A stretch of 64,000 nt of DNA, taken from contig JAJFJQ010000032.1 of assembly GCA_021773835.1 (NCBI GenBank), positions 1 through 64,000 of the forward strand, written 5' to 3'. Each line of letters begins with the position of its first letter. Within the stretch, counting starts at the first letter, position 1. The notes below the pieces were generated by a model. It saw only the letters and a list, made by a program, of their open reading frames with translations, ran no database searches and had not been told where the DNA came from. This document shows positions 12,181 through 53,478 of the stretch, piece by piece. This DNA comes from Gammaproteobacteria bacterium. Lineage in GTDB: Bacteria; Pseudomonadota; Gammaproteobacteria; Ga0077536. Made by a program: the position numbers and the translations under genes.

Positions 12181-13773
12181 TTGATTGAACAACTACAGCT
12201 GGCGCGTAGGTCCGCTCGCATTGTCTGGCCATTTAGATGGTGGGGACTTGTGTGCATGGTGCTTATCTGTGTGCCCGGGTGGATCTATGTTTTCTACATG
12301 CCGAACGTGTACGAGGTAAACGCGAAAATCTTTGTCGATACGCGTTCAATGTTAAGGCCGCTGCTAAAGGGCCTCGCTGTCAATACCGATTCTCTAGCGT
12401 CCTCAGCTGCACTCATGCAACGAACACTGTTGACCCGTCCGAATCTTGAAGAAGTTGCACGGCGTACGGATCTCGATCTCACCGCCAAGACCGAGGAGGG
12501 GTTCGAAAATCTGATCTCAGGTTTAGCGGAGCGCATCCAGCTCGCGGGCACAAACAGAGACAACATCTACGAAATTAAATTTTCCGATAGAGATCCCCTT
12601 AAGGCGAAACAAATCGTTGATGAATTACTGAATACGTTTCTTGAGAATGCGCTCGGTAGTAACCGTACCGATTCCGCAGCGACCAAGAAATTTATCGACG
12701 AACAGATCGCAGAATACGAAAAACGATTAATCGAAGCCGAAGATCGATTGAAAGAATTTAAGCAGCGCAACGTCGGCCGAATGCCTAATGAAGGCGGTAA
12801 TTACTTTACTCGCTTGCAGTCCCAGAAGACCCAACTCAAGCAGGCAAAGCTAGAACTAACCGAGGCGGTGCGCAGGCGCGACGAATTGAATAAACAACTC
12901 AAGGGTAATGCGAACACCGAAAGCGATTATGTCCCGCCGGGTGCACCGACTGAGACCGAATACTCTGAGCGAATATCTGCACTTGAATCGAGCTTGGACT
13001 CGCTGCTGCTCCAATACACCGAAAAACATCCCGACGTCGTTGGAACCCGAGCGACATTGGAGCGGCTGCGCTTAAAACACGACGAAGAGTTGAAGACTTT
13101 GATCGAACAATTCAAAGAGCAGCCGTTAATCTCGGAAGCCGGTAGCGGCAGCGAAGCATACAACAATATCCGCCTGGCTCTGGCGCAAACCGAGGCTGCC
13201 GCGGCAGCACTGGAATCCCGGGTCAAAGAGTATCAAGAGAGAGCGGAAGAGTTGGAAAAACTTGTCGATACGATCCCGGAAGTCGAAGCCGAGTTATTGC
13301 GACTAGACCGAGACTACGACCTCAATTCGGAGCGCTATCATGAACTCCTCGCTCGTCGCGAGTCCGCGCGCATGGGGCAAGACGTCGACCAGAAAGCGGA
13401 CGACATTAAATTGAAGGTTATTGAACCTCCACGTGTACCACTCATTCCAACTGGACCGAATCGGCCGCGATTTTTGAGTATGGTGCTGCTTGGTGCGCTC
13501 GGGGTCGGCCTCGCCTTACCATTTCTCTTGTCTCAGCTAAACCCGCGGTTTCATACCGAGGACGACCTAAAAGAGTTCGCACTATTGCCGATTTTAGGAA
13601 CGATCTCTCTCGTATCAAACCGGCGACAAAAAGCAGAGAGGAGAATGGAGATGGCGGTATTTGGTACCGTATTTGCCGGGATCGTATTTGTCTACGTCGG
13701 ATTAATATCGCTCGACGTCGGCAATTATGATTTGCATGCAAAGTTAGTAGAGTTCGTCGGTAAAAGCTCATGA
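12181..13773 (+). CDS. XrtA system chain-length determinant (Wzz/GNVR family)
   Basis: This 530-residue inner-membrane protein starts at TTG with GAAGGA upstream. A first membrane helix lies near residues 20-40 (GLVCMVLICVPGWIYVFY), directly followed by the Wzz-type segment (IFVDTRSMLRPLLKGLAV). Long coiled-coil regions fill about 150-240 and 310-400. A proline-rich turn (EPPRVPLIPTGPNRP) precedes the second helix (about 427-450). An extra hydrophobic segment lies near 483-508. Proteins of this kind set polymer length and connect the cytoplasmic autokinase to the outer-membrane export protein. The kinase is a separate gene downstream, overlapping by 4 bases (ATGA), as usual for XrtA loci. Confidence 0.93.
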   Translation: MIEQLQLARRSARIVWPFRWWGLVCMVLICVPGWIYVFYMPNVYEVNAKIFVDTRSMLRPLLKGLAVNTDSLASSAALMQRTLLTRPNLEEVARRTDLDLTAKTEEGFENLISGLAERIQLAGTNRDNIYEIKFSDRDPLKAKQIVDELLNTFLENALGSNRTDSAATKKFIDEQIAEYEKRLIEAEDRLKEFKQRNVGRMPNEGGNYFTRLQSQKTQLKQAKLELTEAVRRRDELNKQLKGNANTESDYVPPGAPTETEYSERISALESSLDSLLLQYTEKHPDVVGTRATLERLRLKHDEELKTLIEQFKEQPLISEAGSGSEAYNNIRLALAQTEAAAAALESRVKEYQERAEELEKLVDTIPEVEAELLRLDRDYDLNSERYHELLARRESARMGQDVDQKADDIKLKVIEPPRVPLIPTGPNRPRFLSMVLLGALGVGLALPFLLSQLNPRFHTEDDLKEFALLPILGTISLVSNRRQKAERRMEMAVFGTVFAGIVFVYVGLISLDVGNYDLHAKLVEFVGKSS

Positions 13774-14759
13774 GCATTATTGAGCGCGCAATAAACAAAC
13801 TGGACGGTAAGGATGTTGTCGACGAGGGCGAGCGCACCGAGGATCACGACGTCTCGAAGAAGCAAAATATTGGTCCTGTAGAAACCACCATAGAGCCGGT
13901 AACAAAGGTAAAGACGGTAGAGAGTTCCGAGCCACCGCCTAGTACAACCGCGGATCCCAAGTCAGATGTCGGTAGCCGTGCATCAAGTGGAATTGAAGGC
14001 CGAAAAAAATCTGCTGCTCCCGAAATTGTTAGAATTGATTTGGAGCGCTTAGCAGCCGCCGGGTTTTTGAGCTTCGATGGAACCAATTCGCGTCAAGACG
14101 AGGACTACCAGAAAATAAAGCGGCGGGTGCTGGCCAATACCGTCCCCGGTGTGAGTTCTTCGGATAAACCGGCGAATCTGATCATGATTACGAGTTCGGT
14201 GCCGGGCGAGGGCAAGACGTTTACCTCAGTCAATATGGCGCTCAGTCTCACTAGAGAAGTCGACCACACGATATTGGCTGTAGATACCGATATTGTGAAA
14301 CGAGACATGTCGCGCATGTTCGGCGCGCTTGACCGAAGGGGGCTGTACGACGTCTTGAACGATCCGAACCTGCCACTTGCCGATGTGATGTACCGTACGA
14401 ACATTCCCAATCTCGTTATCCTTCCTGCCGGGCTGAATCAAGCGGTTAGAACCGAAGTCTTAGCGAGCGCACGCATGCGAGCGATTACGGAGGAGTTATC
14501 GACCCGGTATAGCGATCGCTTAGTGATTTTTGATACCTCGCCGATATTGGCGACGAGTACGGCGATGGCATTGGCCCCTCAAGTTGGACAATTTATTCTC
14601 GTGGTAGAAGCGAACAAGACGAAGCACGAAACCCTAAGTGCGGCGCTTAATTTAATAGACGACACGCCGGTGACAGGCTTGATACTCAATAAATCGAAGC
14701 AACAAACGAGAAACACGTACGATTACTACGGCTATTACACAAAGGGCAGCGACTCCTAG
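13770..14759 (+). CDS. XrtA-associated bacterial tyrosine autokinase
   Basis: This 329-residue cytoplasmic BY-kinase (Wzc/CpsD type) has a disordered N-terminus rich in E, D, K and P to about residue 85. The kinase domain then shows the Walker A motif SSVPGEGKT (142-150), the A' motif LAVDTDIVKRDM (about 169-180), and the Walker B-like LVIFDTSP (about 250-257). The C-terminus has a tyrosine cluster (TYDYYGYY), the expected autophosphorylation tail. The ATG overlaps the stop of the chain-length gene, so the two are translationally coupled. Phosphorylation cycles of this kinase would control polymer length and export. No stand-alone phosphatase is next to it; the only tyrosine phosphatase domain in the window is fused to an ATP-grasp protein at 49470-51209. 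Confidence 0.94.
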   Translation: MSIIERAINKLDGKDVVDEGERTEDHDVSKKQNIGPVETTIEPVTKVKTVESSEPPPSTTADPKSDVGSRASSGIEGRKKSAAPEIVRIDLERLAAAGFLSFDGTNSRQDEDYQKIKRRVLANTVPGVSSSDKPANLIMITSSVPGEGKTFTSVNMALSLTREVDHTILAVDTDIVKRDMSRMFGALDRRGLYDVLNDPNLPLADVMYRTNIPNLVILPAGLNQAVRTEVLASARMRAITEELSTRYSDRLVIFDTSPILATSTAMALAPQVGQFILVVEANKTKHETLSAALNLIDDTPVTGLILNKSKQQTRNTYDYYGYYTKGSDS

Positions 14760-17487: not shown

Positions 17488-18351
17488 ATGAATGCAGCAG
17501 GCACAATGAGAAATGCACTGACGTTTGACGTGGAAGAGTACTTCCAAGTGTCGGCCTTCGAAAAGCAAATCTCACCTTCGGACTGGGACAAATGGCCGTC
17601 TAGGGTTGAGGCGACGACGAACGGGCTGCTCGATCTGCTAGCTCAGTTTAATGTCAAAGCGACATTTTTCACGCTCGGCTACATCGCACAGAATCATCCC
17701 ATGCTGGTACGACGAATTGTAAGTGACGGACATGAGCTGGGCTGTCACGGCATGCAGCATGTGCGGATCTCTGAGCAGACTCAGGTTGAATTTCGAGAGG
17801 ATATCTCGCGCGCAAAACAAATCCTTGAGGACTGTGTTGGGACTGCCATACAAGGTTATCGTGCGGCGAGCTTTTCCATCAACCGCGCGAATTTTTGGGC
17901 GTTCAAGGAAATGGAAGAGGCTGGATTTATCTATAGTTCCAGCATCTATCCAGTACAGCGAGATTTGTACGGCATCCCGGATGCCCCGCGGGTACCATTT
18001 AACCCACACGAATCTAACCCGGGCTTTATCGAGATTCCGATCTCAACAACTCGGATTATCGGACGCAATTATCCGGTCGGCGGTGGGGGGTTCTTCCGTC
18101 TGTATCCGTATTCATTCTCAAAGTTTCTTGTTCGTCGCGTGAATAATGCGGAGAAGATGAAGGTAAATATGTACTTTCACCCATGGGAGTTCGACCCGGA
18201 GCAGCCGCGGATTGAAAACTTGCCGGCGAAAACAAAATTTCGGCATTACCTAAATTTAACCCGATCGATCGAACGTATGAAGCGCCTCTTGAGTGATTTT
18301 TCTTGGTCCTCGATGAACGACGTTTACGCTGAAGAAATTGGTCTAAGTTAG
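17488..18351 (+). CDS. XrtA system polysaccharide deacetylase (NodB fold, DUF3473)
   Basis: This 287-residue protein has the signature start of XrtA deacetylases (ALTFDVEEYFQVSAF), where the DVE acidic residues belong to the NodB active site. The metal-binding histidines are seen in LGCHGMQH. The C-terminal part (YFHPWEFDPEQPR) is the DUF3473 segment typical of this subfamily. It lacks a signal peptide. It likely removes N-acetyl groups from the growing glycan or its lipid-linked intermediate. The start ATG at 17488 could also be the ATG 18 bases further in (MRNALTFDVEE). Its stop overlaps the start of the FemAB-like gene by one base. Confidence 0.93.
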   Translation: MNAAGTMRNALTFDVEEYFQVSAFEKQISPSDWDKWPSRVEATTNGLLDLLAQFNVKATFFTLGYIAQNHPMLVRRIVSDGHELGCHGMQHVRISEQTQVEFREDISRAKQILEDCVGTAIQGYRAASFSINRANFWAFKEMEEAGFIYSSSIYPVQRDLYGIPDAPRVPFNPHESNPGFIEIPISTTRIIGRNYPVGGGGFFRLYPYSFSKFLVRRVNNAEKMKVNMYFHPWEFDPEQPRIENLPAKTKFRHYLNLTRSIERMKRLLSDFSWSSMNDVYAEEIGLS

Positions 18352-19400
18352 TGGACCACGGCAGCGAAATGAAATTGAGCTATTCAATCAGTCGGCTCAA
18401 ATCAGAGGACTCTGCAGCATGGGACAACTACGTCGCCAATAACCCAGGTGGAAGTTTTTTCCATCTAAGTGGTTGGCGGACAGTACTTGAAGCGGCGCTT
18501 GGCCATCAAACCCATTACGTTATTGCAAAAGGAGAATCCGAAATCGTTGGGGTGTTGCCCCTTGTACACGTAAAAAGTTTTCTATCCGGTAGCAACCTCA
18601 GTTCCCTCGCGTTCGGTTCGTACGGCGGGGCAATTGCCGATAATGACGATATTCGTGATGCTCTCGAGCGGTACGCGGTAGAACTTGGCCACGAGCTTAA
18701 TGTCGGTAGCGTTGAATTTCGCTATCTTGAAAGTACCGGAAAGGCTAGGCCAATAAAGAATTTATACGAACGATTTGTAAAACCGATTTGCGCTGACGAA
18801 GAGGAGAATATGCAAGCTATCCGCGGCAAGCAGCGTAACGTTATACGTAAAGGGATTAAGAACGGACTTGAGTTGCACGTCGATACTTGTACCTCGTTTT
18901 ATGAAACTTATGCGGAAAGTGTTCGGAATCTGGGGACGCCAGTATTTCCCCGCAAACTATTCGAATCGCTAACGGAGGTCTTTTCCGATTCGACGGAAGT
19001 ACTAACAGTATCTTTAGACGGTACGGCCATAAGTAGTGCGATTGTGTACTACCACGGAAACGAGGTGTGCCCATATTATTGGGGTGGAAAGTTCGCGGCA
19101 AGGTCCCTAAAAGCAAACGATGTCCTTGCCTGGAAGATAATGTGTCGCGCTGCGGAACGAGGTTGCACGAGTTTCGACTTTGGACGCAGCAAACGCGACA
19201 CGGGGTCATATCAATGGAAGCTTAACCTCGGTTTTGAACCGATACCGTTATCGTACGAATACGAATTGATCAACGACGGTCAAATTCCTGAGGTCAATCC
19301 ATCAAATCCAAAATATAAACTATTTATCGACGTGTGGAAGCGATTGCCGTTAAGCGTTTCGAAAATTGTTGGTCCGGTAGTTTCTCGAGGTCTCGGATAA
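18351..19400 (+). CDS. FemAB-like XrtA/PEP-CTERM-associated protein
   Basis: This 349-residue protein belongs to the FemAB/GNAT superfamily group always found next to exosortase A (TIGR03019 type). Visible features are the N-terminal DNYVANNPGGSFFHLSGW, the central basic KQRNVIRKGIKNGLEL, and the C-terminal FDFGRSKRDTGSYQWKLNLGFEP, a GNAT-type acceptor region. FemAB enzymes move amino acids from aminoacyl-tRNA onto cell-wall precursors; here the donor and acceptor are unknown, and modification of glycan or lipid intermediate is inference. The GTG overlaps the previous stop (TAGTG); an ATG at 18369 (MKLSYS) is an alternative start. Confidence 0.88.
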   Translation: MDHGSEMKLSYSISRLKSEDSAAWDNYVANNPGGSFFHLSGWRTVLEAALGHQTHYVIAKGESEIVGVLPLVHVKSFLSGSNLSSLAFGSYGGAIADNDDIRDALERYAVELGHELNVGSVEFRYLESTGKARPIKNLYERFVKPICADEEENMQAIRGKQRNVIRKGIKNGLELHVDTCTSFYETYAESVRNLGTPVFPRKLFESLTEVFSDSTEVLTVSLDGTAISSAIVYYHGNEVCPYYWGGKFAARSLKANDVLAWKIMCRAAERGCTSFDFGRSKRDTGSYQWKLNLGFEPIPLSYEYELINDGQIPEVNPSNPKYKLFIDVWKRLPLSVSKIVGPVVSRGLG

Positions 19401-34124: not shown

Positions 34125-35129
34125 CTATTTTACGTTGGCACTACAAGCGCCGTTTTCCGAATACCACTGCGCGAATTCTGACAAGGTCTTGGTTTGCATC
34201 CCTGAATTATGAATGCAATGGCGGAAGGTCTCTTCGATAGTTTTTAGGAATCTCTTCAACTCGGAGGAGTCGGTTACATACGGTGTGAAACCGGGTTGCA
34301 GTGACGAGCTGTGGAACATCATCACAATGCATGGCGCGTCGTTCCGACGATATGCGTCAGCTAGTGCATTTAGCTGACGGCTTGTACTTTTTTCAGGCGA
34401 AAACTTTATCCTTTGAAGTATCTCTAATCGATCGAAGATCCCTCTCAGTCGCAAGCGGTTTAATGGCGGGTACGCTAGAAATTCGTATAGTGCGTATGCT
34501 TGTTCAAAGTTACTCCAGTTGAATCCGAAAGATACAGGTACCTCCAATAAATTGGTCGTGACCGATGAAGGCTGGCAAAGGTTATCGCCAACATAATAAG
34601 GTTTCCACGGCGCCCCTCGAAAATCAGGGCCGCCATCGCCAGAATAATCCATAAACGGACATACACTTGAATCGACAATATAGTTAAGCTCGCTAAGGAT
34701 TGAAGCTCCATCGCTATCCAATCCGTAGCGACCCGCTCTAAATGATGTCGGCGAAAGACCAAACCGCGACTCAATATGCTCAGTGACCGTAGTCAATTTT
34801 TCACGCTGTAAATCTAGTGGAAGATTACACAAGTACGACCGTACGCTATCTATATTGTGCTCTACAGGTGGCGTGTTCCAGGGGTGAATATGGCAACCGA
34901 TTTCACATCCGTTTTGTGCGATTATGCGATCGAGCACGGATGTTGCGCTAGTGTCGTCCAAAATTGGTGTATCAACGAGGTAGGTGGGCTTAATGGCGAA
35001 CGTATCGCAGATCGCTTGAAACGCGGGAACCCCCTTAATGTTTTCTACGGGGTTGTCACGGGCAGAGAACTGCCCCGACCACAGCCCTTCCTCTTCTGTA
35101 TCCACCGTAACGATTAACGTCGGCGTCAT
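34125..35129 (-). CDS. Polysaccharide deacetylase (NodB fold)
   Basis: This 334-residue protein has the NodB-type catalytic start LIVTVDTEEEG with its Asp, the metal-binding EIGCHIHPWNTPP (His-x-His), and SFRAGRYGLD, the later conserved Arg segment. There is no signal peptide. It resembles the WalW-type deacetylases of polysaccharide loci. It differs from the XrtA deacetylase at 17488, which has the DUF3473 tail. It is an isolated minus-strand gene, flanked by long gaps. It probably removes an acetyl group from a sugar in the polymer or its precursor. Confidence 0.88.
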   Translation of the reverse strand: MTPTLIVTVDTEEEGLWSGQFSARDNPVENIKGVPAFQAICDTFAIKPTYLVDTPILDDTSATSVLDRIIAQNGCEIGCHIHPWNTPPVEHNIDSVRSYLCNLPLDLQREKLTTVTEHIESRFGLSPTSFRAGRYGLDSDGASILSELNYIVDSSVCPFMDYSGDGGPDFRGAPWKPYYVGDNLCQPSSVTTNLLEVPVSFGFNWSNFEQAYALYEFLAYPPLNRLRLRGIFDRLEILQRIKFSPEKSTSRQLNALADAYRRNDAPCIVMMFHSSSLQPGFTPYVTDSSELKRFLKTIEETFRHCIHNSGMQTKTLSEFAQWYSENGACSANVK

Positions 35130-36003
35130 AGTTGCAGCAACCGGCTATATTTCAAACGTAGTAGTTTAGGTGTTTTAGATCGAAGGTCCACCAGTGCACG
35201 TTGGTAAGTCACCCTATTTCGGTTGGGTTGTGACGTTTTTTTACTGATTCTGCGAATTTGTGCTCAGAACGATCAACTACGCAGACGCTAGCAGACCAAT
35301 CTACAGTTAGGTGAGTCTGAATTGTTCGTTACCTTCATCGTAAGGATCTGAGATCGCGAACTAGGAGCTGTAGAACCGCAAGTGGCACAAGGTCTTTGGC
35401 AGCCAGAACTTCGATTCGGATGCCTCCTGTGCAAATATATAAAAAGTTATTAGATTAAGGCGGCAGTCCAACCAACCAGTAGGAGTAAAAAATCGTTAAG
35501 TTGCGCTCAATTTGGCGCGCGAGCAATGCCCTTCCGAGCATTGAAGTCTTCACTAATATAAGATGACGGCGGTTGATTAATGGTTGAACAAATGCATCTA
35601 TCAGGCGGACCGTACTTATATATGGACTGCCAAATTGACGGTAGTCTTGCAATACCGATTGTGTTGGTTCGGACAGTCGTATCGATTTAATTATGTAAAA
35701 ATAAATGTCGAGTATTACGGACTTCGGATTATATGGTCGCGTCTGTTTTCGGTATTCAACGTGATGAATTTAAATTAAAAGAGCCAACTGATCGCGAATT
35801 GGGCCAATGACGTCATATAAAGAGGTCTTCGTCGGACGACTAATGGAATTCAGTTACTGTGATGTAACAGCCTTTTGTTTTCATGCAATAGCGGTGAACG
35901 CGTTTTGTGTTTGCCGCTCAAACCCACGTCCTTATAGAGAAATTTGGTGATTGAAGAATCTCCGACCAGCTACCTCACTTTTTCCGCGCGCATTATATCC
36001 ACA
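35130..36003. other. Long AT-rich gap without a recognised gene
   Basis: There is no supported gene in about 870 bases; this is one of the most AT-rich parts of the window. Promoters of the deacetylase (minus) and polysaccharide lyase (plus) must lie here. The frame of the lyase is open from a TTG at 35944, but the signal sequence begins at the ATG at 36004. Confidence 0.4.
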
Positions 36004-36845: not shown

Positions 36846-36992
36846 GGATTATTAATGCAATTGAAAACGAGCCGCATTTCTCACTTTCACGGTAAAGTCT
36901 GATTATTCGTATAAACAATCGTTGCTTCAATAGAATTAATCAAACGTGTTTTGCAGAATGCGCAATCCAATACTTCGACTACAAGGAAATTC

Positions 36993-38318
36993 ATGAAAAT
37001 ATCGATATTCGGGCTCGGCTATGTTGGGTGTGTCACGGGCGCGTGTCTGGCTAAGCACGGGCATGATGTGATTGGGGTCGATGTTAATCCAGACAAGGTG
37101 AACCTCATAAATGGCGGGAAATGCCCGATCGTAGAACCGGGCCTTGCTGAGCTTATAGCGGATGTCACGGCGAAAAACCGAAAATCCAAAGGTAGTTTCA
37201 GCGCCACGGACGACAGTGCACTCGCGGTCAAGCAAGCGGACCTAACAATGATTTGTGTAGGTACACCTAGCGACCAATCGGGGAACGTGAATCTCAATGG
37301 CGTGCGGCGATGCATAGCGTCAATTGCCGAAAATCTGACGTCAAAAAGCGATTACCATGTTGTCGTTATCAGGAGTACGGTTCCTCCCGGAACGACAGAT
37401 AGCTTGATCGCCGGTAGCCCGGATATTCAACGAGCAGTGTCGGATGGAACGCTTGGGTTTTCAATGAATCCTGAATTTCTCCGAGAAGGAAGCTCTATCG
37501 AGGATTTCGAAAACCCACCAGTAACAATTATTGGAGAAACTGATCCCAATGCAGGTCAACGCGTCGAAGAATTGTACAATTTTATTGATGCACCTGCGGT
37601 GCACCTGGAATTGCGTGCGGCGGAGATGATTAAGTACGTAAATAACGCGTTTCATGCGCTAAAGGTTACGTTCGCGAATGAAATCGGTTCTATTTGTAAG
37701 GAGCTATCAATAGACAGTCACGATGTGATGAATGTCGTCTGTATGGACGATAAGCTCAATATCTCAAAAAAATATTTAATACCCGGCTTTGCCTTCGGAG
37801 GTTCCTGTCTACCAAAAGACTTGCGGGCGCTAAACTACATTGCTCGTCACGAAGACATTCAGTTGCCACTTCTCGATAGCATGCTGCTAAGTAACAGAAC
37901 GCTCATAGAACGAACGGCACAGCGTGTTCGTGATCTTGGCAAACGACGTATTAGCTTGCTGGGTTTGTCGTTTAAAAAAGATACCGATGACTTGCGAGAA
38001 TCGCCTTTTGTGACCCTGGCCGAAGAGCTCATCGGCAAGGGTTATGAACTACAAGTCTTCGATAATAACGTTTCGCTTTCGAAGCTCATCGGCGCCAATG
38101 CCGCCTATATTAAAGAGCACCTGCCGCATATTGATAGTGTTATAAATTCTGATTTAGCATCGGTAATCGACCACGGCGAGGTAATCGTCGTGTGCAACTT
38201 CGAATCAAGTTACGCGGAACATCTCTGTCAGCTGGAATCCGATAAGGTGGTCGTTGACCTTGCACGTTTACCGGAAGAAGCCCGAGGCGCATACCAATAC
38301 GAAGGACTGGCTTGGTAG
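36993..38318 (+). CDS. algD: GDP-mannose 6-dehydrogenase (AlgD-like) / UDP-glucose dehydrogenase family
   Basis: This 441-residue NAD-dependent dehydrogenase starts at the ATG at 36993, with AAGGAA upstream, just as AlgD proteins start (MKISIFGLGYVGCVTGAC). It has the NAD-binding GLGYVG, the conserved KCPIVEPGL, and the catalytic Cys272 in FGGSCLPKDLRAL. The C-terminal SFKKDTDDLRESP is the UDP-binding-type domain. These segments are more like GDP-mannose than UDP-glucose dehydrogenases, so the product is most likely GDP-mannuronate. This would give the polymer a uronic acid, in line with the adjacent lyase. A shortened, decayed copy lies at 53098-53478. The gene is followed by glycosyltransferases on the same strand. 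Confidence 0.88.
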   Translation: MKISIFGLGYVGCVTGACLAKHGHDVIGVDVNPDKVNLINGGKCPIVEPGLAELIADVTAKNRKSKGSFSATDDSALAVKQADLTMICVGTPSDQSGNVNLNGVRRCIASIAENLTSKSDYHVVVIRSTVPPGTTDSLIAGSPDIQRAVSDGTLGFSMNPEFLREGSSIEDFENPPVTIIGETDPNAGQRVEELYNFIDAPAVHLELRAAEMIKYVNNAFHALKVTFANEIGSICKELSIDSHDVMNVVCMDDKLNISKKYLIPGFAFGGSCLPKDLRALNYIARHEDIQLPLLDSMLLSNRTLIERTAQRVRDLGKRRISLLGLSFKKDTDDLRESPFVTLAEELIGKGYELQVFDNNVSLSKLIGANAAYIKEHLPHIDSVINSDLASVIDHGEVIVVCNFESSYAEHLCQLESDKVVVDLARLPEEARGAYQYEGLAW

Positions 38319-44279: not shown

Positions 44280-45761
44280 TCAATAAACTAGTTTCTTAAG
44301 AAGTTTCAATATTTCATTTTCTATATCATCTTGATGGCCGAACATCCGCCATAACGTAACATTCGTGACAATGTATATGGCGGCACCGAAAACAATCTTT
44401 ATTCCAAGGATAGACATCGGCGTCCCGTCGATGTTTGTCGTGAAAGCCAAGATACAGAACGCCATCGTTGCAGAACTGGTAAGCGGCCGCCAGATTTGTG
44501 AAACGATCGCTCGTGGTGGAACGTGATGAGTCCTTGATATCATGCCTAAAATAGCAATCGACAGAGCCGCCGCGAGTGCAATTTTTATATAAAGGATCCC
44601 GAGGACTCCGGCCCAATCGAATGCGATATAAAACAACGAAAGGAATATCGCGGTTCGAACAACTGATAGTGTGGCCAGAGTTGATATGTGACCGGTGACT
44701 AACGAAATGTTTGAGGCAACAGTTCCAAGTGTCGTGAACATAAGATGTACGCTGGCAACTTGAACTATTGCGATAGCGGGAGTCCATTGGGCGCCTAGTA
44801 CGATGGGTACAAACTCCTTTGCAACAAGCGCAAAACCGATCGATACTGGTACCGTTACGATGGCGGTCGCACCAAGGGATTTTAAAAACGCCGTACGTAG
44901 TCTTTTCGGGTCGGTTTGCAGCTTAGCCAACCCGGGGACGATTGCCCGAGAAATAGGTGCGGTTATTTCGGTCGCAGCCATCTGAGACAGCTCAACACCT
45001 ACTGTGTAGTGTCCCAGGCGGCCCGGTGCTAGTAGTCCGCCTAGAAGCAGTCGGTCGAAATTGGCAGACAAGTAATTCGCTGTTTGGAGGACGGCTACCC
45101 ACTTTGAAAACGACCAGATAGCACGAGCACCGGTAAACCTCAGTTTTGGACGAAACGGGTGAAAAAAATAACTCAAGACGCATTCGACGACATAGGCAGC
45201 CAAGATGCCTAGCACCAACGCCCAATAGGAACGCAAAACGAGCGCCAATGAAATTGTAATACCGATGCTGAGGACTTTCGCGACTACGAGGTATTTGAAT
45301 TCTTTATCGAATTCGAGATCCTTTCGAAACGAAACTATTCCAATATTTGTGAGACCTTGAATTATTACGCTGACCGCCAGTACCCAAAGGAGAGGCGCAA
45401 CCCTGTGGTCGTCGTAATACAACACCGCATATGGCGCGACCAAAACAAGTACGGCAGCGACCGCAATCGACTGTAAAAGCCGAATACTCCATGCGGCATG
45501 AAAGTCAGAATCGGTTGCGTCTGCATTTCTTATTAACGCGTAATCGACGCCTAACTCGAAAAATACCCTAGATAATCCAACTACTGCAGTTGCCATAGCG
45601 ACAACACCAAAATCTTCTGGCGTCAGAAGTCGTGCTAGGACCACGACGTTTACCGCACCAAGACCGCGGACCACCCAGCGCACAGCAACCATCCATGCCG
45701 AACCGGATAACAGAATATTTCGTAGAGGCGGTGTCGTTTCGGGCTTCTTAGCTATCGACAT
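44280..45761 (-). CDS. Second oligosaccharide flippase (Wzx/MOP family)
   Basis: This polytopic protein (493 residues from the ATG at 45761; the frame is open to 45875) has NVVVLARLLTPEDFGVVAMATAVVG, ELGVDYALIRN, SFRKDLEF and FFHPFRPKLR. The last two nearly match the plus-strand flippase (FRKDMQF, MHPFRPNLT), so the two are paralogues or relatives of the same subfamily. It is oriented toward the other flippase with 249 bases between and no obvious terminator. Two flippases suggest either two polymers or a recently acquired replacement. The start is uncertain because neither candidate has a clear ribosome binding site. Confidence 0.88.
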   Translation of the reverse strand: MSIAKKPETTPPLRNILLSGSAWMVAVRWVVRGLGAVNVVVLARLLTPEDFGVVAMATAVVGLSRVFFELGVDYALIRNADATDSDFHAAWSIRLLQSIAVAAVLVLVAPYAVLYYDDHRVAPLLWVLAVSVIIQGLTNIGIVSFRKDLEFDKEFKYLVVAKVLSIGITISLALVLRSYWALVLGILAAYVVECVLSYFFHPFRPKLRFTGARAIWSFSKWVAVLQTANYLSANFDRLLLGGLLAPGRLGHYTVGVELSQMAATEITAPISRAIVPGLAKLQTDPKRLRTAFLKSLGATAIVTVPVSIGFALVAKEFVPIVLGAQWTPAIAIVQVASVHLMFTTLGTVASNISLVTGHISTLATLSVVRTAIFLSLFYIAFDWAGVLGILYIKIALAAALSIAILGMISRTHHVPPRAIVSQIWRPLTSSATMAFCILAFTTNIDGTPMSILGIKIVFGAAIYIVTNVTLWRMFGHQDDIENEILKLLKKLVY

Positions 45762-46480
45762 TGTAAAAGAGATCCACGGTCTTTGGGTCGCAAAATCAGT
45801 TATCGATAGCGCCATTATTTGGTGCTGTGCACGCAGAGTCGATAGATCGGATTCGCTCGACGGCGAGTTTAGCACGGGGTAGTGGCATCACTATCGTCAA
45901 ACGGCGATGTGGTATTGAGGCCGATGCGGCGCATTGCGCACCGAGCATCTAGGAGAACACTTGGTATGTTTGAATCGATTGGCGGGGCCACACTGGGAGC
46001 GTCTGGCTATAAACTGCGCTAAACGAGTTACCGTTTTTTCGATGCCTTTCACTACGGTCGCTTGTTATTCCGAAAAATACTCTCGCAGCGTCGACGAGCC
46101 GCGAGCTATTTTCCGAAATTGCATTGGCGCGTATGAATTAAGTACATTCGGCGCTTGCGCAAGCGCAGCAACCCTACGACAGCAGAGCGATATGCGGAAA
46201 AGCAGAGATCTCGATTGAGTTATTTCGGTCTTTGCGCTTTAGCTAACTGTTGGAGTAACTTTTGCAATTTGGCAACAGAAATTCAAGCGATGGAGCACTC
46301 GACGATGGATGGCTGGATGCGTAATAACAGCCATTGTAATTTCATTGGTCGCCGCGACTGGAAGACTCATTCTCACTCGCTATTTCGCAGACATTACAAA
46401 TAGTCTAATTGCAGGTGGCTCTGCGTTAGTTGCATATACGGTGACTCGCTAACTATTTTCGCTACCGGGCCATATTGAAG
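45762..46480. other. Gap without a recognised gene
   Basis: I found no supported gene. Plus-strand ORFs at 45934 and 46155 carry no motif I know. Part of this DNA (to 45875) may be translated if the flippase starts further upstream. Confidence 0.35.
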
Positions 46481-46549
46481 GCTCTCCTTCAGATGAAAAA
46501 CTGACCAGGGCCGAAAAAGCCGTTGAATAACGCACTAATGAAGGAGAGC
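46481..46549. repeat. 11-bp inverted repeat at the end of the DUF4091-like gene
   Basis: GCTCTCCTTCA (46481-46491) and TGAAGGAGAGC (46539-46549) are perfect reverse complements with 47 bases between. The second arm lies inside the last codons of the minus-strand gene. In the transcript it would form a long-loop stem. No T-run follows, so a protective or attenuating 3' structure is more likely than a classic terminator (inference). Confidence 0.5.
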
Positions 46550-48508
46550 GGTGATGCGATTTTGAATTTCCGTACGGATTTCGTCCATTTCCGATTCACG
46601 ATTTGTTACTATTTCTGAGTTGTTGATTCCTCCAACTGTATTTGGATTCGAAATTAGATTTCGTGCGCGTTTTTCCAGGTTTTTTAAATAATCTAGATCC
46701 TTTTGGGAGCCGCCGATTGTAGCGAAGTACCGCAGCGTCTCGATATATCTGCGGTCGTCGATACCCTCTCGAACTGCTACGGCGCGGACGCTGGGAACAA
46801 TTGGTCCTCGAGTGTTTCTGTTTCGGCGGCCGTGAGGATCAAGCGGCATGGCAAAGTGCAGCGTCCAGCCTTTACCGTTCAGATCTCCTTTATAATTCGC
46901 CCACATTAACGCCGCTTCAGCTCTAATCGCCCAAGGAATAACGCCAAAAGTTAGGCGCGCCTGTGCGTTTAGATTATTTGCACCGCCGTAGTGCCATAGT
47001 TCCCCGCCCAGAGAGTCCTGCAGGATCCGTGCCGAATCATCGAGAGTGTTGGATCCGATGACGTCGAAGTTTAACCGCGCCGTCTCTCGCGACAGAAACA
47101 AAGCGATTTGCTCCAACTTGCGTGGCCTTTTATTACCACGCAGAAAATGACCGCTGCTTTGATACAAACGGGAGTATCCGGGGCGCCATTCCGTCATGTA
47201 GAGTCTTGTAGATGGACTACCAACGCGTACGTATGGAACTGCGGCAATTATTTCCCGCACCGCGTCTTGATCTTTTAACGCCTCGTCAAAGGGATTTATT
47301 ACAAATTCTGGCCACCCATGTTCACGCTCTGCGGCTTTCAAAGCTGCACAAATCGCGGCAAATCCTTTCTTTCCGTCGATGGTTTCGATTCCGGAAAACC
47401 CAGCACTTTTTAGTACGTTATTAAATTGAAATACTTTACCGCTGGCACCCCAATTCCAAAATGCCACATCTCCCATCCCGTAGCGCCGCATTGTTCGCAT
47501 TGTGGTATTAAATTTTCGAAACTTCGGATCTTTGGTGTCTATTATGACCTCATAATCGCCTCGTCGTCGGAACGGAATTTCGTTTCCTTTATTAAAAAAA
47601 CCGCCAGCGAGATTAAAACCGTAGCGGCTGTCCATCTCCATCATCTCGGTTGTGTATCCCGAGAAACCACCCTCCCAAATGTTAAAAGTCGTACCGAATG
47701 CTCCGGCGTGAAAGTTGTTCGTTTTCAATCTAAACGGTAGCACCTGTAGGGTTGTGGCAATGTCTTTTAAAACAATGCCGTCGGCAAGAACGGACACATT
47801 CCCCTGATATATTCCTGCCGGTAACGCGCTTGGAACGTGGAAATCGACAACATAGGTCATTGAATGATCGGCCGGAAATAACCATTGGTTGTTAGGCGTC
47901 TTAAGCAGGACCATCGGCCGAACCTCTGTTCCATAAGGGGTATGCCGTGAGGAGATTTCGGCACGATACGCCAGCATTAGGCGGTTCGTTACATGTTTTG
48001 CGGATAACGTTCCAGTCGGTCCGGTGAAATCGCTATGAATTATCGATATTGTGTGTGGCCGATTATTTGACCGCACTCCGATCGCGATCGGCTCGCTTTC
48101 TCCTTGCGCGGCGACCATCTTGACGGGATCTGCATGCCGCAGATCTGATGGCGGGATGTAGTCAGTTGATACTGTTTTCCAATACTTAGTTGGGAAGATG
48201 TGTACGTCTTGATGCGCATAATGTTCAGATTTCGGATTCGCCTCAGCAGTGTCAGATCCCGAAAAATTAGGCCAATATTCAGTTAGGAAATGGGTGCTTG
48301 CGAGTAAATCGATCTCGTCTCCCTGGATCCAGTCCGGCTCAAATACATCACGTCCCCAGAAGCGACCGTATACAGGGGTGCTCGGGACCGTACGTGATTC
48401 TGCTGCGCGGTAAGGTAGTGAGACGTTTAGTGAAGAAACGTAGTCAACGCTGATATATATAGTGAGCGCGACTGTTGCGGTAGCGACTACATGACTAGCT
48501 TTAAGCAC
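46535..48508 (-). CDS. Secreted glycoside-hydrolase-like protein (DUF4091-type C-terminus)
   Basis: This 657-residue protein has an N-terminal hydrophobic signal or anchor (VVATATVALTIYISVDYV). The middle resembles a TIM-barrel glycoside hydrolase: VTNRLMLAYRAE and LPAGIYQGNVSVLADG (a beta-sandwich before the barrel), then FVINPFDEALKD with possible catalytic acidic residues. The C-terminus has SVRAVAVREGIDDRRYIETL, the DUF4091-like motif (REGIDDYRY). It would act outside the cytoplasm on a glycan. It lies 165 bases downstream of the kinase-like gene on the same strand and may be part of that operon. The assignment rests on the C-terminal motif and overall layout. Confidence 0.65.
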   Translation of the reverse strand: MLKASHVVATATVALTIYISVDYVSSLNVSLPYRAAESRTVPSTPVYGRFWGRDVFEPDWIQGDEIDLLASTHFLTEYWPNFSGSDTAEANPKSEHYAHQDVHIFPTKYWKTVSTDYIPPSDLRHADPVKMVAAQGESEPIAIGVRSNNRPHTISIIHSDFTGPTGTLSAKHVTNRLMLAYRAEISSRHTPYGTEVRPMVLLKTPNNQWLFPADHSMTYVVDFHVPSALPAGIYQGNVSVLADGIVLKDIATTLQVLPFRLKTNNFHAGAFGTTFNIWEGGFSGYTTEMMEMDSRYGFNLAGGFFNKGNEIPFRRRGDYEVIIDTKDPKFRKFNTTMRTMRRYGMGDVAFWNWGASGKVFQFNNVLKSAGFSGIETIDGKKGFAAICAALKAAEREHGWPEFVINPFDEALKDQDAVREIIAAVPYVRVGSPSTRLYMTEWRPGYSRLYQSSGHFLRGNKRPRKLEQIALFLSRETARLNFDVIGSNTLDDSARILQDSLGGELWHYGGANNLNAQARLTFGVIPWAIRAEAALMWANYKGDLNGKGWTLHFAMPLDPHGRRNRNTRGPIVPSVRAVAVREGIDDRRYIETLRYFATIGGSQKDLDYLKNLEKRARNLISNPNTVGGINNSEIVTNRESEMDEIRTEIQNRITALLH

Positions 48509-48673: not shown

Positions 48674-49477
48674 CTAATTGGAAAAATAATGTTGCATTGC
48701 GTCAGCTAGGAACCGTCGAGCAAAGGTCAATTTAACCGCCGCAACAATCCGTGGTAGATGCTGCATACGGATCCGAAAAATTTCTTGGGCGGCTTCTGAA
48801 ACCTGGACCGCAGCGTCGCGTTCGAGGTATTGAAAGCAAACCGGGGTAATTTTTTCCGACGAGACCATGAGGTTTTTGGGCTGGAACGATGCCGCAATTT
48901 CGCAATACATGATTAGTTCGCTGAGTCCGAGAGGTTCTAGTGCGGCAGAATCAAGGTCGGCAAGAATTAACTTTCGACCCGCTAAGGTTAAGTTTTGCCA
49001 CAAATCTCCTTTTAACCCGAGCGAAATAGGGAAGCCAGTATTCAACATGGTTTGAATTGGTTCTACGAAATAGACCGAATCACTTATGCTACGCAGGAAT
49101 CCTTGGTCATCGCGGATCGAATAGCATTTCTTGAAAAACGACTCGGCATGTCCAAGCGTTCGCTTGTTCAATAATTTCGCTGTTGGGAGGATGTTTATGT
49201 ATTCCATAAACACGGTGTGTTTTTCAACGTCGATACCATAGGGCGTAGGGACTACGAGAATTCCAGCAAATTCGCGATGAAAAAATGAGAGCGTTTCATG
49301 CACGTACTGCGTATTTATTTTTGAGTATTTTTCTGGGTGCCCGCTGTAACTTTTTGTAATGAATTTTCGCCCATCCCGATCTTCGCCTAAGCACACCCGC
49401 TTATATTTATTCAACTTGAGAGTCGTTTGGCGAACGATTGTTTCGGGCGCTCCGACATAGTCCGGGGAACTAGTCAT
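48674..49477 (-). CDS. Kinase-fold (aminoglycoside-phosphotransferase-like) protein
   Basis: This 267-residue protein looks like a small-molecule or protein kinase fold. The ATG at 49477 is chosen because it overlaps the stop of the fusion gene by 8 bases (ATGACTAG), giving translational coupling; the frame itself is open to 49552. Kinase-like features are a Lys in RKFITKSYSG, the hinge-like VFMEYINIL, the catalytic-loop-like LGLKGDLWQNL and the metal-binding ILADLDSAAL. The usual His or Tyr before GD is Lys here, so activity is uncertain. A predicted role is phosphorylation of a sugar, lipid or protein linked to the adjacent ATP-grasp/phosphatase fusion. Confidence 0.6.
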   Translation of the reverse strand: MTSSPDYVGAPETIVRQTTLKLNKYKRVCLGEDRDGRKFITKSYSGHPEKYSKINTQYVHETLSFFHREFAGILVVPTPYGIDVEKHTVFMEYINILPTAKLLNKRTLGHAESFFKKCYSIRDDQGFLRSISDSVYFVEPIQTMLNTGFPISLGLKGDLWQNLTLAGRKLILADLDSAALEPLGLSELIMYCEIAASFQPKNLMVSSEKITPVCFQYLERDAAVQVSEAAQEIFRIRMQHLPRIVAAVKLTFARRFLADAMQHYFSN

Positions 49478-51209
49478 AGCGAGAGTCCAAATAATCAAGA
49501 GCCTGAACAATCGAGAGGTAGATCTCACGAAATCGATCGTTTCCGCCGCCATATGGATCAGCTATTTCGAATTCGCTCCCAGGGATCATATCGCCAAGAT
49601 AGAATATCTCGCCGCTAAAAAAAGGGAATTTTTGATGGAATGCCACCATATGTTTTTCTTCGAATACGAATATTAAATCCGAGGAGCGAACGGCGAGATC
49701 ATCAATTAGCATCGAACGGTGAGAAGATAGATCCACGCCAAGTTCTGCCGCAGATTGCACTGCTTGCGCAGGTGGGGCGCGGTTAGTTACTTCATGAAAT
49801 CCCGTAGAGGTTATGACAGTGTTTGTTGGTAGTACTTCGGCTGCATATCCAGCAGCAAATGGGCTCCTGCAAATATTACCTGAGCATACAAAGTTAATAT
49901 TATTTGCCGATTTGCTTAGCCGTCGAATTAGCTTTTGACGTCGTTTGTGAATGGGACCAAATGATCGAATATTTCTTCGCGCGATCGAAAGACTCTTTGC
50001 GGCCATCATGCTCGCAACTTCACGAAATTCCGTTAATGCAGGAGCGGGGTCGTCTAGGGTGAAGCTGTCGACGTGCTCTCGAAAGGTTAACAAGCGAAAA
50101 TATTCAGAGGCCATCGATGGTAGTGAAACCGAGTATTTCGACGGTTGTTCCGAAAAGCGGTCTTTGAGATTATCGATGGCCCAATACAGATCGCGCTTAA
50201 TATTTCTGCAGTAGACCTCGCTGCGAGCCGGGGGAATTGATGGCAAAGTATCGTTAACGATGAGATCGTAGAGTAGCTTCGGAAAATCGGCGCCGCTCGC
50301 GAGCGCTAACGGAAGTGATCCCCAAAACCGACCGTTAATTTCGATAAATATCCAATCGCCGGTTAATGGATTAATTTTGTACTCAACCATTGCGACGCCG
50401 GTATATCCGATTTCAGCCATTAGTGTCTTTGTTGCGCTAATTAGCTCAGGATTCATCGGAACTACGCTTTTTCGATATGAACTCGCTCCGCCGGTTCGGG
50501 GTTCATGAACACGTAAATGCTGAAAGGCGTAAAGAACTTCTCCGTCTTTGACCAACACCTCGATCCCGGTTCCTACACCAGCGAAATGCTCTTGAATTAA
50601 TGCGGTCTTCCAACCATGCAATTTTGGTAAAATATCGTTTAGTTGAGCTCGATTGGACGCTACCATTACCTCTCGACGTACGCTCAGATCTTCACTCACA
50701 TAAGACGATGGTGGTTTAATGACAATCGGAAAGTTGAATCCTTCCGGTAGGCCGGTTTCTAATACCGAAAGTTCAATAGAAAGTTGCTTAGCGACTCGAA
50801 TTCCAAGTTTATCGACGAGAAGCGATGATTTTATTTTGTCAAACGCGATTTCAAATACAGAAGGATCGAGAGAATACACGCCAGCGTACTTACCCAGCTC
50901 CTCTTGGTGTAGTTGTACAGGAATTGTTGATTCGTCGTGCGTTGGCACGATGAGATCGAAATTATATGACTTAGCTAGTTCAATGATTACGTCTAGCCAT
51001 TCCGATGATGCATCGTTGTAGTCTGGAATGTCATGGACGTGGCTGACGTAACGAGATTTAAGCGCAAGATCGTCAAGTGGGCACATGCCGACGTGTATTG
51101 TTAACGAAGCTCGACCAAGCGAACGAATTACGGACAAAAATGCGCGAATGTCTCGACCAAGTACGAGGACGTGCCCCGATTGACGTGCGCAAGCCTTAGA
51201 TTCAACCAT
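49470..51209 (-). CDS. ATP-grasp enzyme fused to a low-molecular-weight tyrosine phosphatase
   Basis: This 579-residue protein has two domains. Residues 1-400 form an ATP-grasp ligase: HVLVLGRDIRAFLS (N-terminal Rossmann-like), DLIVPTHDEST, FPIVIKPPSSYV (ATP-binding Lys), LIQEHFAGVGTGIEVLV, MVEYKINPLTGDWIFIEINGRFWGS (metal-binding E-x-N). Residues 437-579 form a LMW-PTP: the P-loop CSGNICRS with Cys442 and Arg448 (C-x5-R), and DPYGG with the general acid Asp551. All key residues are present in both domains. ATP-grasp enzymes join a carboxylate to an amine or thiol; LMW-PTPs (Wzb type) dephosphorylate BY-kinases. The window has an autokinase without its own phosphatase, so this domain could serve it (inference). 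A divergent glycosyltransferase starts 227 bases upstream. Confidence 0.92.
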   Translation of the reverse strand: MVESKACARQSGHVLVLGRDIRAFLSVIRSLGRASLTIHVGMCPLDDLALKSRYVSHVHDIPDYNDASSEWLDVIIELAKSYNFDLIVPTHDESTIPVQLHQEELGKYAGVYSLDPSVFEIAFDKIKSSLLVDKLGIRVAKQLSIELSVLETGLPEGFNFPIVIKPPSSYVSEDLSVRREVMVASNRAQLNDILPKLHGWKTALIQEHFAGVGTGIEVLVKDGEVLYAFQHLRVHEPRTGGASSYRKSVVPMNPELISATKTLMAEIGYTGVAMVEYKINPLTGDWIFIEINGRFWGSLPLALASGADFPKLLYDLIVNDTLPSIPPARSEVYCRNIKRDLYWAIDNLKDRFSEQPSKYSVSLPSMASEYFRLLTFREHVDSFTLDDPAPALTEFREVASMMAAKSLSIARRNIRSFGPIHKRRQKLIRRLSKSANNINFVCSGNICRSPFAAGYAAEVLPTNTVITSTGFHEVTNRAPPAQAVQSAAELGVDLSSHRSMLIDDLAVRSSDLIFVFEEKHMVAFHQKFPFFSGEIFYLGDMIPGSEFEIADPYGGGNDRFREIYLSIVQALDYLDSRYD

Positions 51210-53097: not shown

Positions 53098-53478
53098 ATG
53101 AGAATGTCCGTGTCCGGACTTGGGTACGTTAGATGCACGACAGGTGCGTGCTTGCCAGAGCATGGCTATGGAGTGATAGGCGTCGACGTAGAGTCCGATA
53201 AAATGAAGTTCGTAGGTAGTGGTAATTGCCCGGGTGCCGGTCACAGACCGGCTGAGCCGATTGCTGCTGTAGGGCAGCATTTGCTGCAGCTCGATGAGGT
53301 GGTGACAGTTGAATTAAGCGCGCTAGTCGAATTCGATGACGCAATGATCGTCCATAACTATGAGGCTAAATACGAGGCACGATTGCCCAATTTAGGTCCC
53401 GATAAGTTTATTGTCGTTCTGACTCGGATCCCGAAATCAGGTCGCGGGGCCTGCCAATCTGACGTCTTATCCTGGTAA
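53098..53478 (+). pseudogene. Internally deleted algD relic
   Basis: This open frame of 126 residues joins the two ends of an AlgD-type dehydrogenase. Residues 1-45 (MRMSVSGLGYVRCTTGAC, GVIGVDVESDK, GNCPGAG) match the intact protein at 36993 (MKISIFGLGYVGCVTGAC, DVIGVDVNPDK, GKCPIVE). Residues 70-126 (LVEFDDAMIVHNYEAKYE, PDKFIVVLTRIP, VLSW) match its C-terminus (VIDHGEVIVVCNFESSYA, SDKVVVDLARLP, GLAW). About 310 residues with the catalytic Cys are missing, and GLGYVG has changed to GLGYVR. The DNA upstream also resembles that before the intact gene (ACGTTGC..CAATAG and a GGA-TTTAC/GGAAATTC site before ATG). It ends 6 bases before the next glycosyltransferase. Confidence 0.9.

Follow-up and report, generated by a model that had tools for sequence, protein, structure and literature searches.

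A conserved ATP-grasp-LMW-PTP fusion in exopolysaccharide loci, with a phosphatase lineage that follows the ligase

Two of the described systems closest to the protein reported here set its background. In the Campylobacter jejuni capsule (PMC11800379, PMC12409886), the TupA-like ATP-grasp ligase Cj1438C couples serinol-phosphate or ethanolamine-phosphate to glucuronate as an amide, after which the HAD phosphatase Cj1435 cleaves off that phosphate. The low-molecular-weight protein tyrosine phosphatases (LMW-PTPs) of capsule loci, exemplified by Wzb and Etp, are usually taken as regulators of tyrosine autokinases. Here we describe a protein that joins an ATP-grasp ligase to an LMW-PTP, encoded in a 64,000-nucleotide stretch of a gammaproteobacterial genome (the window) that also carries a tyrosine autokinase.

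The fusion gene occupies 49470-51209 on the reverse strand and encodes 579 amino acids from an ATG start with no internal stops; its delineation draws on the open reading frame (ORF), Pfam, an alignment of fusions and an AlphaFold model. The ATP-grasp ligase domain covers about residues 11-400 (50010-51179, reverse strand; Pfam, alignment, model and fold match) and the LMW-PTP domain residues 438-573 (49491-49898, reverse strand; Pfam and alignment). Pfam matches are ATPgrasp_Ter (residues 202-335, 31.9 bits against a cut-off of 29.1, E = 1.3e-7), CPSase_L_D2 and LMWPc (PF01451, residues 438-572, 73.6 bits against a cut-off of 23.2, E = 2.5e-20). The PRK12767-type ATP-grasp model of NCBIfam scores far below its equivalog cut-off (65.3 against 390 bits), as do the Wzb/Etp-type phosphatase models. 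An AlphaFold model computed from 11 aligned fusions (mean pLDDT 83.8, pTM 0.70) places a helical linker between the domains, with long helices at residues 389-416 and 419-434. Residues 11-398 of this model superpose on PylC (Z = 27.0, 296 residues aligned, r.m.s.d. 3.1), and the nearest folds to the ligase domain are PylC, 2pn1, PurK and L-amino acid ligases; judged by its modelled fold, the ATP-grasp domain is complete. Because ATP-grasp matches took up the structure-match lists from VIA and Foldseek, the phosphatase fold was judged by sequence alone. Its P-loop is CSGNICRS (C442, R448) and its general acid D551 sits in a DPY motif, giving the C-x5-R-[ST] P-loop, the Asp in DP and the Pfam score above cut-off that characterize the LMW-PTP family. 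Across 13 aligned fusions, the ATP/Mg-binding residues K165, E276, E290, N292 and R294 and the phosphatase residues C442, N445, R448, S449, D551, P552 and Y553 are invariant, and at the sequence level both active sites are intact. An earlier sequence-only reading had proposed a complete ATP-grasp and a complete LMW-PTP in one protein, with Cys442, Arg448 and Asp551 in the phosphatase; the Pfam domains and the PylC-like fold over residues 11-398 agree with the first point, and the three positions were correctly placed.

Fusions of this architecture recur across many marine bacteria. A tblastn search of 72,556 plasmid records matched the protein over its full length in three records of Vibrio alfacsensis (32% identity, 96% coverage), and a degenerate scan of genome_contigs with a two-row alignment, A1, returned 18 loci, 11 of them with full-length fusions; scanning genome_contigs with the window protein alone as query found no relatives. 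These 11 derive from a Manganitrophaceae MAG, Aliivibrio, three Photobacterium, Paraglaciecola, Alteromonas, an Alteromonadaceae isolate, Vibrio, Colwellia and a MAG labelled Rhodospirillaceae. Whole genomes searched with an ATP-grasp profile yielded fusions in 4 of 398 genomes of a phylum sample and 9 of 246 genomes of one family; among the matches listed for a 274-genome class sample, none outside the window's own genome spans both domains. The resulting 20 proteins besides the window's, from Vibrionaceae, Alteromonadaceae, Colwellia and a Nitrospirota MAG, all keep the catalytic residues. The 21 fusion rows comprise the 13 aligned ones (the window's included; 75 invariant residues, pairwise identity 29-62% with one pair at 99%) and eight from whole genomes, and contain the near-duplicates L087/L093 and L156/L161. 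The contig labelled Rhodospirillaceae (L093, PAXN01000053.1) carries a fusion that shares 99% identity with the one from Alteromonas portus (L087), and this contig was probably mis-binned into its MAG. A 174-kb V. alfacsensis plasmid (NZ_CP140104.1, L082) carries the fusion together with XrtA/PEP-CTERM exopolysaccharide genes. The two domains are separate genes in several relatives, as would be expected if a sequencing or assembly error had fused normally separate genes in the window; however, 20 other rows share the architecture, linker region included, full-length fusions came from separate searches, and a relic in the window, described below, itself carries both parts. Such an error is therefore vanishingly improbable and was ruled out: because same-architecture homologues exist, the fusion is not an artefact, and ATP-grasp-LMW-PTP is a conserved fusion.

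Within exopolysaccharide loci, the fusion forms a module together with a protein of the GNAT/FemAB type and either a deacetylase or a WalW-like protein; we use the name 'WalW' for the putative deacetylase genes beside the fusion. The order in other loci is FemAB/GNAT, an optional flippase, fusion and WalW-like gene. Among the 20 non-window fusion loci, a WalW-like or PF01522 gene lies downstream of the fusion, within the stretch fetched, in all 19 testable ones (L086 was left out, its contig stopping at the fusion) and is the immediate next gene in 15 of the 19, and a FemAB/GNAT-type gene (PF13480) is close upstream in 18 of 20, being unlabelled in L083 and L159. A firm tie between WalW-like proteins and PF01522 deacetylases was dropped, as the former have no Pfam match and reach an hhalign probability of just 21% (E = 0.001). 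Deacetylases would free an amine, and proteins of the FemAB/GNAT type transfer acyl or aminoacyl groups. The V. alfacsensis module sits within an annotated XrtA/PEP-CTERM locus, and the recurrence of the architecture in XrtA/PEP-CTERM exopolysaccharide loci bears out the polysaccharide setting proposed in the sequence-only reading.

In non-fused relatives, ligase, phosphatase and deacetylase are three neighbouring separate genes. Twelve non-fused close ATP-grasps (E at most 1e-60) were collected from the 398-genome phylum sample and the 246-genome family sample; eight (L129, L130 and L150-L155) have a separate LMW-PTP within 2.6 kb, and in seven of these a PF01522-type deacetylase lies within 35 bp of an ATP-grasp gene (7.5 kb in L155). 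The fetched stretches of the other four (L128, L131, L132 and L133) contain no such phosphatase, the ORF choice in L133 having missed the ATP-grasp itself. Three genomes (G087, G203 and G075) encode the phosphatase fused to a PF01522 deacetylase, with an ATP-grasp in the same locus. Other combinations also occur: a related ATP-grasp is fused to a HAD phosphatase (PF12710) in G020 (L072:402-2177) and to a GNAT domain (PF13480) in G140 (L075:8148-10565), and in G700 a 751-aa protein with a weak ATP-grasp match and PF13480 adjoins the phosphatase. Family models label gmhA-, hddA- and hddC-like heptose genes in one fusion locus (L085), homologues of its gmhA and hddA occur in L089 and L094, and in L086, L087 and L093 the gene immediately before the fusion encodes a gmhB-like HAD phosphatase. 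A heptose-phosphate substrate, suggested by these genes, was set aside, as they are labelled in just these 6 of the 20 loci.

The window appears to retain a trace of the module order seen elsewhere. A pseudogene at 35298-35865 (reverse strand) is the relic of a second ATP-grasp-LMW-PTP fusion, with pieces in broken frames that match fusion residues 68-128, 137-209, 431-446 and 545-567 in colinear order; its best scores are 130 for the ATP-grasp and 59 for the PTP, and none of 500 randomised sequences scored as high for either. It is closer to the live window copy than to the other fusions tested. Directly downstream lies a gene for a WalW-like protein, a putative deacetylase (34125-35129, reverse strand; matches in 10 loci, best 3e-35), which is homologous to the gene after the fusion elsewhere, and therefore the fusion-WalW order was probably once present in the window. 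We infer that the live copy at 49470 is a relocated or surviving sibling of the relic. The relic is also a sign of gene duplication and decay inside one exopolysaccharide locus.

Further genes of the window include a FemAB family XrtA/PEP-CTERM protein (18351-19400, forward strand; family models), a nucleotide-sugar dehydrogenase (36951-38318, forward strand; TIGR03026, 1.7e-111), which is a possible source of a uronic acid carboxylate, and a flippase (Polysacc_synt_3; 44280-45875, reverse strand) that shares its family with the one found close to the fusion elsewhere. A short ORF at 53098-53478 (forward strand) matches the first 45 positions only of UDPG_MGDP_dh_N and is apparently a broken nucleotide-sugar dehydrogenase. 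The 657-aa product of 46535-48508 (reverse strand) has no Pfam match over cut-off and a weak match to Glyco_hydro_123_N_2 (E = 0.17), and is possibly a glycoside hydrolase. Downstream of the fusion, an orphan gene at 48674-49468 (reverse strand), which would overlap the 3' end of the fusion when read from its first ATG, was picked out by a GDLWQN...DLDSA motif, of which we take GDLWQN...DLD to be kinase-like. It has no Pfam match at E up to 5, no match in the PDB or in the 72,556 plasmid records, and two weak matches besides itself in the 398 genomes (E = 0.003 and 0.0099); its single-sequence model is unusable (mean pLDDT 34). It was rejected as a supplier of a phospho-substrate, since no family could be assigned and sequence searches did not find it in other fusion loci.

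Phylogenies of the two domains place the fusion phosphatase in a lineage of its own, which moves with the ligase even when unfused. On the ATP-grasp tree of 32 rows, 13 fusions fall in one clade (96/91) with two non-fused rows, L090 and L067_part, the latter a partial row whose neighbour is a deacetylase-phosphatase fusion; the fused or non-fused label needs 2 changes on this tree. On the phosphatase tree of 60 rows, the 13 fused domains are one clade (99/90), sister to the deacetylase-fused domain of G087 (98/88), and 43 generic LMW-PTP rows form the opposite side (98/88). In a 76-row quick tree, 21 fused, 8 separate, 3 deacetylase-fused and one further domain fall outside the 43-row generic clade (support 91). 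The generic clade includes the Wza-adjacent L071, Wzb having been assigned in the tree by context, with none experimentally proven. The second P-loop Cys, the redox partner in LMW-PTPs, is lost in 19 of 21 fused rows (the window and L083 keep it) and is present in 55 of 55 other rows. The DPY motif occurs in 21 of 21 fusions, and the P-loop Ile is also invariant in them.

The window's XrtA-type tyrosine autokinase (13770-14759, forward strand; TIGR03018 1.3e-66, just under the cut-off) lies about 35 kb from the fusion in the same locus. In line with the sequence-only reading, it carries a tyrosine-rich C-terminal tail; the fused LMW-PTP is the only such phosphatase inside the window. Another LMW-PTP of the same genome (L168:9356-9841, on C74 of G000) sits ahead of a 544-aa membrane protein, which may be a chain-length determinant, and could be the classical Wzb of another polysaccharide locus. 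With TIGR03018 at E up to 1e-40, 84 of the 398 genomes have an XrtA-type autokinase. The 43 kinase genomes examined are the 54 over the TIGR03018 cut-off plus the window's genome, minus 12 from three over-represented genera; the other 29 of the 84 score below the cut-off. XrtA-type autokinases normally lack a nearby LMW-PTP: a match falls within 60 kb of the kinase in 7 of the 43, and these seven include every one of the five genomes that have a close ATP-grasp (E at most 1e-90; four fused, one separate). Linkage is thus found in 5 of 5 genomes with a close ligase versus 2 of 38 without (Fisher P = 2.2e-5). In this comparison four of the five carry the fusion by definition, four belong to a single family, and fragmentation affects many of the 38 assemblies. 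The remaining two phosphatases (G586 and G321) were set aside for their arsenate-reductase-like P-loops, CTGNSCRS and CTGNSARS as seen across the two genomes, motifs that we take to mark arsenate reductases; the comparison then becomes 5 of 5 versus 0 of 38. Six of the 43 kinase genomes have no LMW-PTP match anywhere. Because linkage is 5 of 5 with a close ligase versus 0 of 38 without, it is the ligase module rather than the kinase that the phosphatase tracks, and, given those 38 and the six genomes lacking any match, the XrtA kinase needs no LMW-PTP. Related ATP-grasps near an XrtA kinase in G107, G420, G612 and G628 have no linked LMW-PTP. Conversely, all 25 tested genomes that encode this ATP-grasp family also have a match to the autokinase family, usually on the same contig and in two cases below the model cut-off, so the autokinase stays available as a substrate.

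These data bear on what the phosphatase acts upon. Tentatively, and with somewhat less than even confidence, we regard the fusion as a two-step exopolysaccharide-modifying enzyme with sequential catalysis. The ATP-grasp domain would link a carboxylate to an amine on a sugar intermediate, and one of its substrates, either a small molecule or a sugar intermediate, would carry a phosphate; the LMW-PTP domain would then strip the phosphate from the ligation product, letting the repeat unit be completed, and the fusion would keep ligation and dephosphorylation together. The conserved architecture and gene order, the kept catalytic residues and the PylC/2pn1/L-amino acid ligase fold are consistent with this scheme, as are the linkage that follows the ligase, the separate LMW-PTP near 8 of 12 non-fused ligases, the deacetylase-PTP fusions in three genomes and the separation of ligase-linked phosphatases from the 43 generic LMW-PTPs. 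Ligase and phosphatase on one chain, with HAD replacing LMW-PTP in G020, fit the Campylobacter logic. It is also conceivable, if a little more speculative, that a tyrosine-phosphatase fold has been turned biosynthetic, dephosphorylating the carbohydrate product of the same-chain ATP-grasp, with the activity shuffled between ligase, deacetylase and free-standing gene. Against sequential catalysis stand the autokinase-family match in all 25 genomes, the ATP-grasp and deacetylase pairs L064, L165 and L166, from which a linked LMW-PTP is absent, and the invariant DPY and P-loop Ile. The last two are features of phosphotyrosine phosphatases, and alkyl phosphates tend to be poor substrates for LMW-PTPs; as a sequence signature, the invariant DPY motif speaks for a phosphotyrosine substrate. 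No gene for phospho-amine synthesis was identified beside the fusions.

The same motifs would suit a Wzb-like regulator that dephosphorylates the XrtA autokinase, the fusion tying polymer length control to a modifying ligase. The sequence-only reading had cast the phosphatase as the autokinase's partner, and the same-locus kinase with its Tyr-rich tail, the kinase match in all 25 ligase genomes and the common partnership of polysaccharide-locus LMW-PTPs with kinases are on its side. We nevertheless consider this partnership doubtful and rather unlikely: linkage follows the ligase, with a bona fide LMW-PTP within 60 kb in none of the 38 kinase genomes without a close ATP-grasp and no match at all in six of the 43, the fused phosphatases do not group within the generic clade to which the Wza-adjacent L071 belongs, and the second P-loop Cys kept in all 55 other rows is lost in nearly all fused ones. 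A phosphotyrosine on another protein of the module (a glycosyltransferase, the nucleotide-sugar dehydrogenase or the ligase itself), whose removal would switch the modification on or off, would reconcile the phosphotyrosine-type motifs with linkage to the ligase module rather than the kinase, but no result suggests a specific substrate, and we hold this reading to be improbable. Sequential ligation and dephosphorylation thus remains the reading that we prefer.

The individual domains are known. A description of an ATP-grasp fused to an LMW or tyrosine phosphatase in polysaccharide loci was not found in the open-licence literature, including the best 15 of 542 matches, and neither the fusion architecture nor the ligase-linked phosphatase lineage was found described there. 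This ligase-following lineage warns against automatically reading capsule-locus LMW-PTPs as autokinase regulators, and points to an unassigned step in the biosynthesis of XrtA/PEP-CTERM exopolysaccharides, which are poorly characterized chemically. Cj1438C/Cj1435 shares with the window an ATP-grasp ligase and a phosphatase in polysaccharide synthesis, but there they are two separate proteins, the ligase being TupA-like and fused to GT2 and the phosphatase a HAD enzyme rather than an LMW-PTP. The window fusion matches ATPgrasp_Ter, CPSase_L_D2 and LMWPc in Pfam rather than a TupA-like ATP-grasp and HAD, and the precedent is analogous, not homologous, because of its TupA-like ligase and HAD phosphatase. 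With Wzb/Etp the window phosphatase shares the Pfam family, C-x5-R-S, DPY and a polysaccharide locus with a tyrosine autokinase; it differs in being fused to a ligase, not kinase-adjacent, on a separate tree branch and in a group of fusions that have mostly lost the second P-loop Cys. Carboxylate-amine ligases of the PRK12767/ATPgrasp_Ter type (2pn1 and, by fold, PylC and L-amino acid ligases) have the same complete fold and catalytic residues, whereas the window protein adds a C-terminal phosphatase and scores far below the equivalog cut-offs. The deacetylase (PF01522)-LMW-PTP fusions of G087, G203 and G075 have a related phosphatase lineage and the same locus partners, with the phosphatase carried on the deacetylase there and on the ligase in the window.
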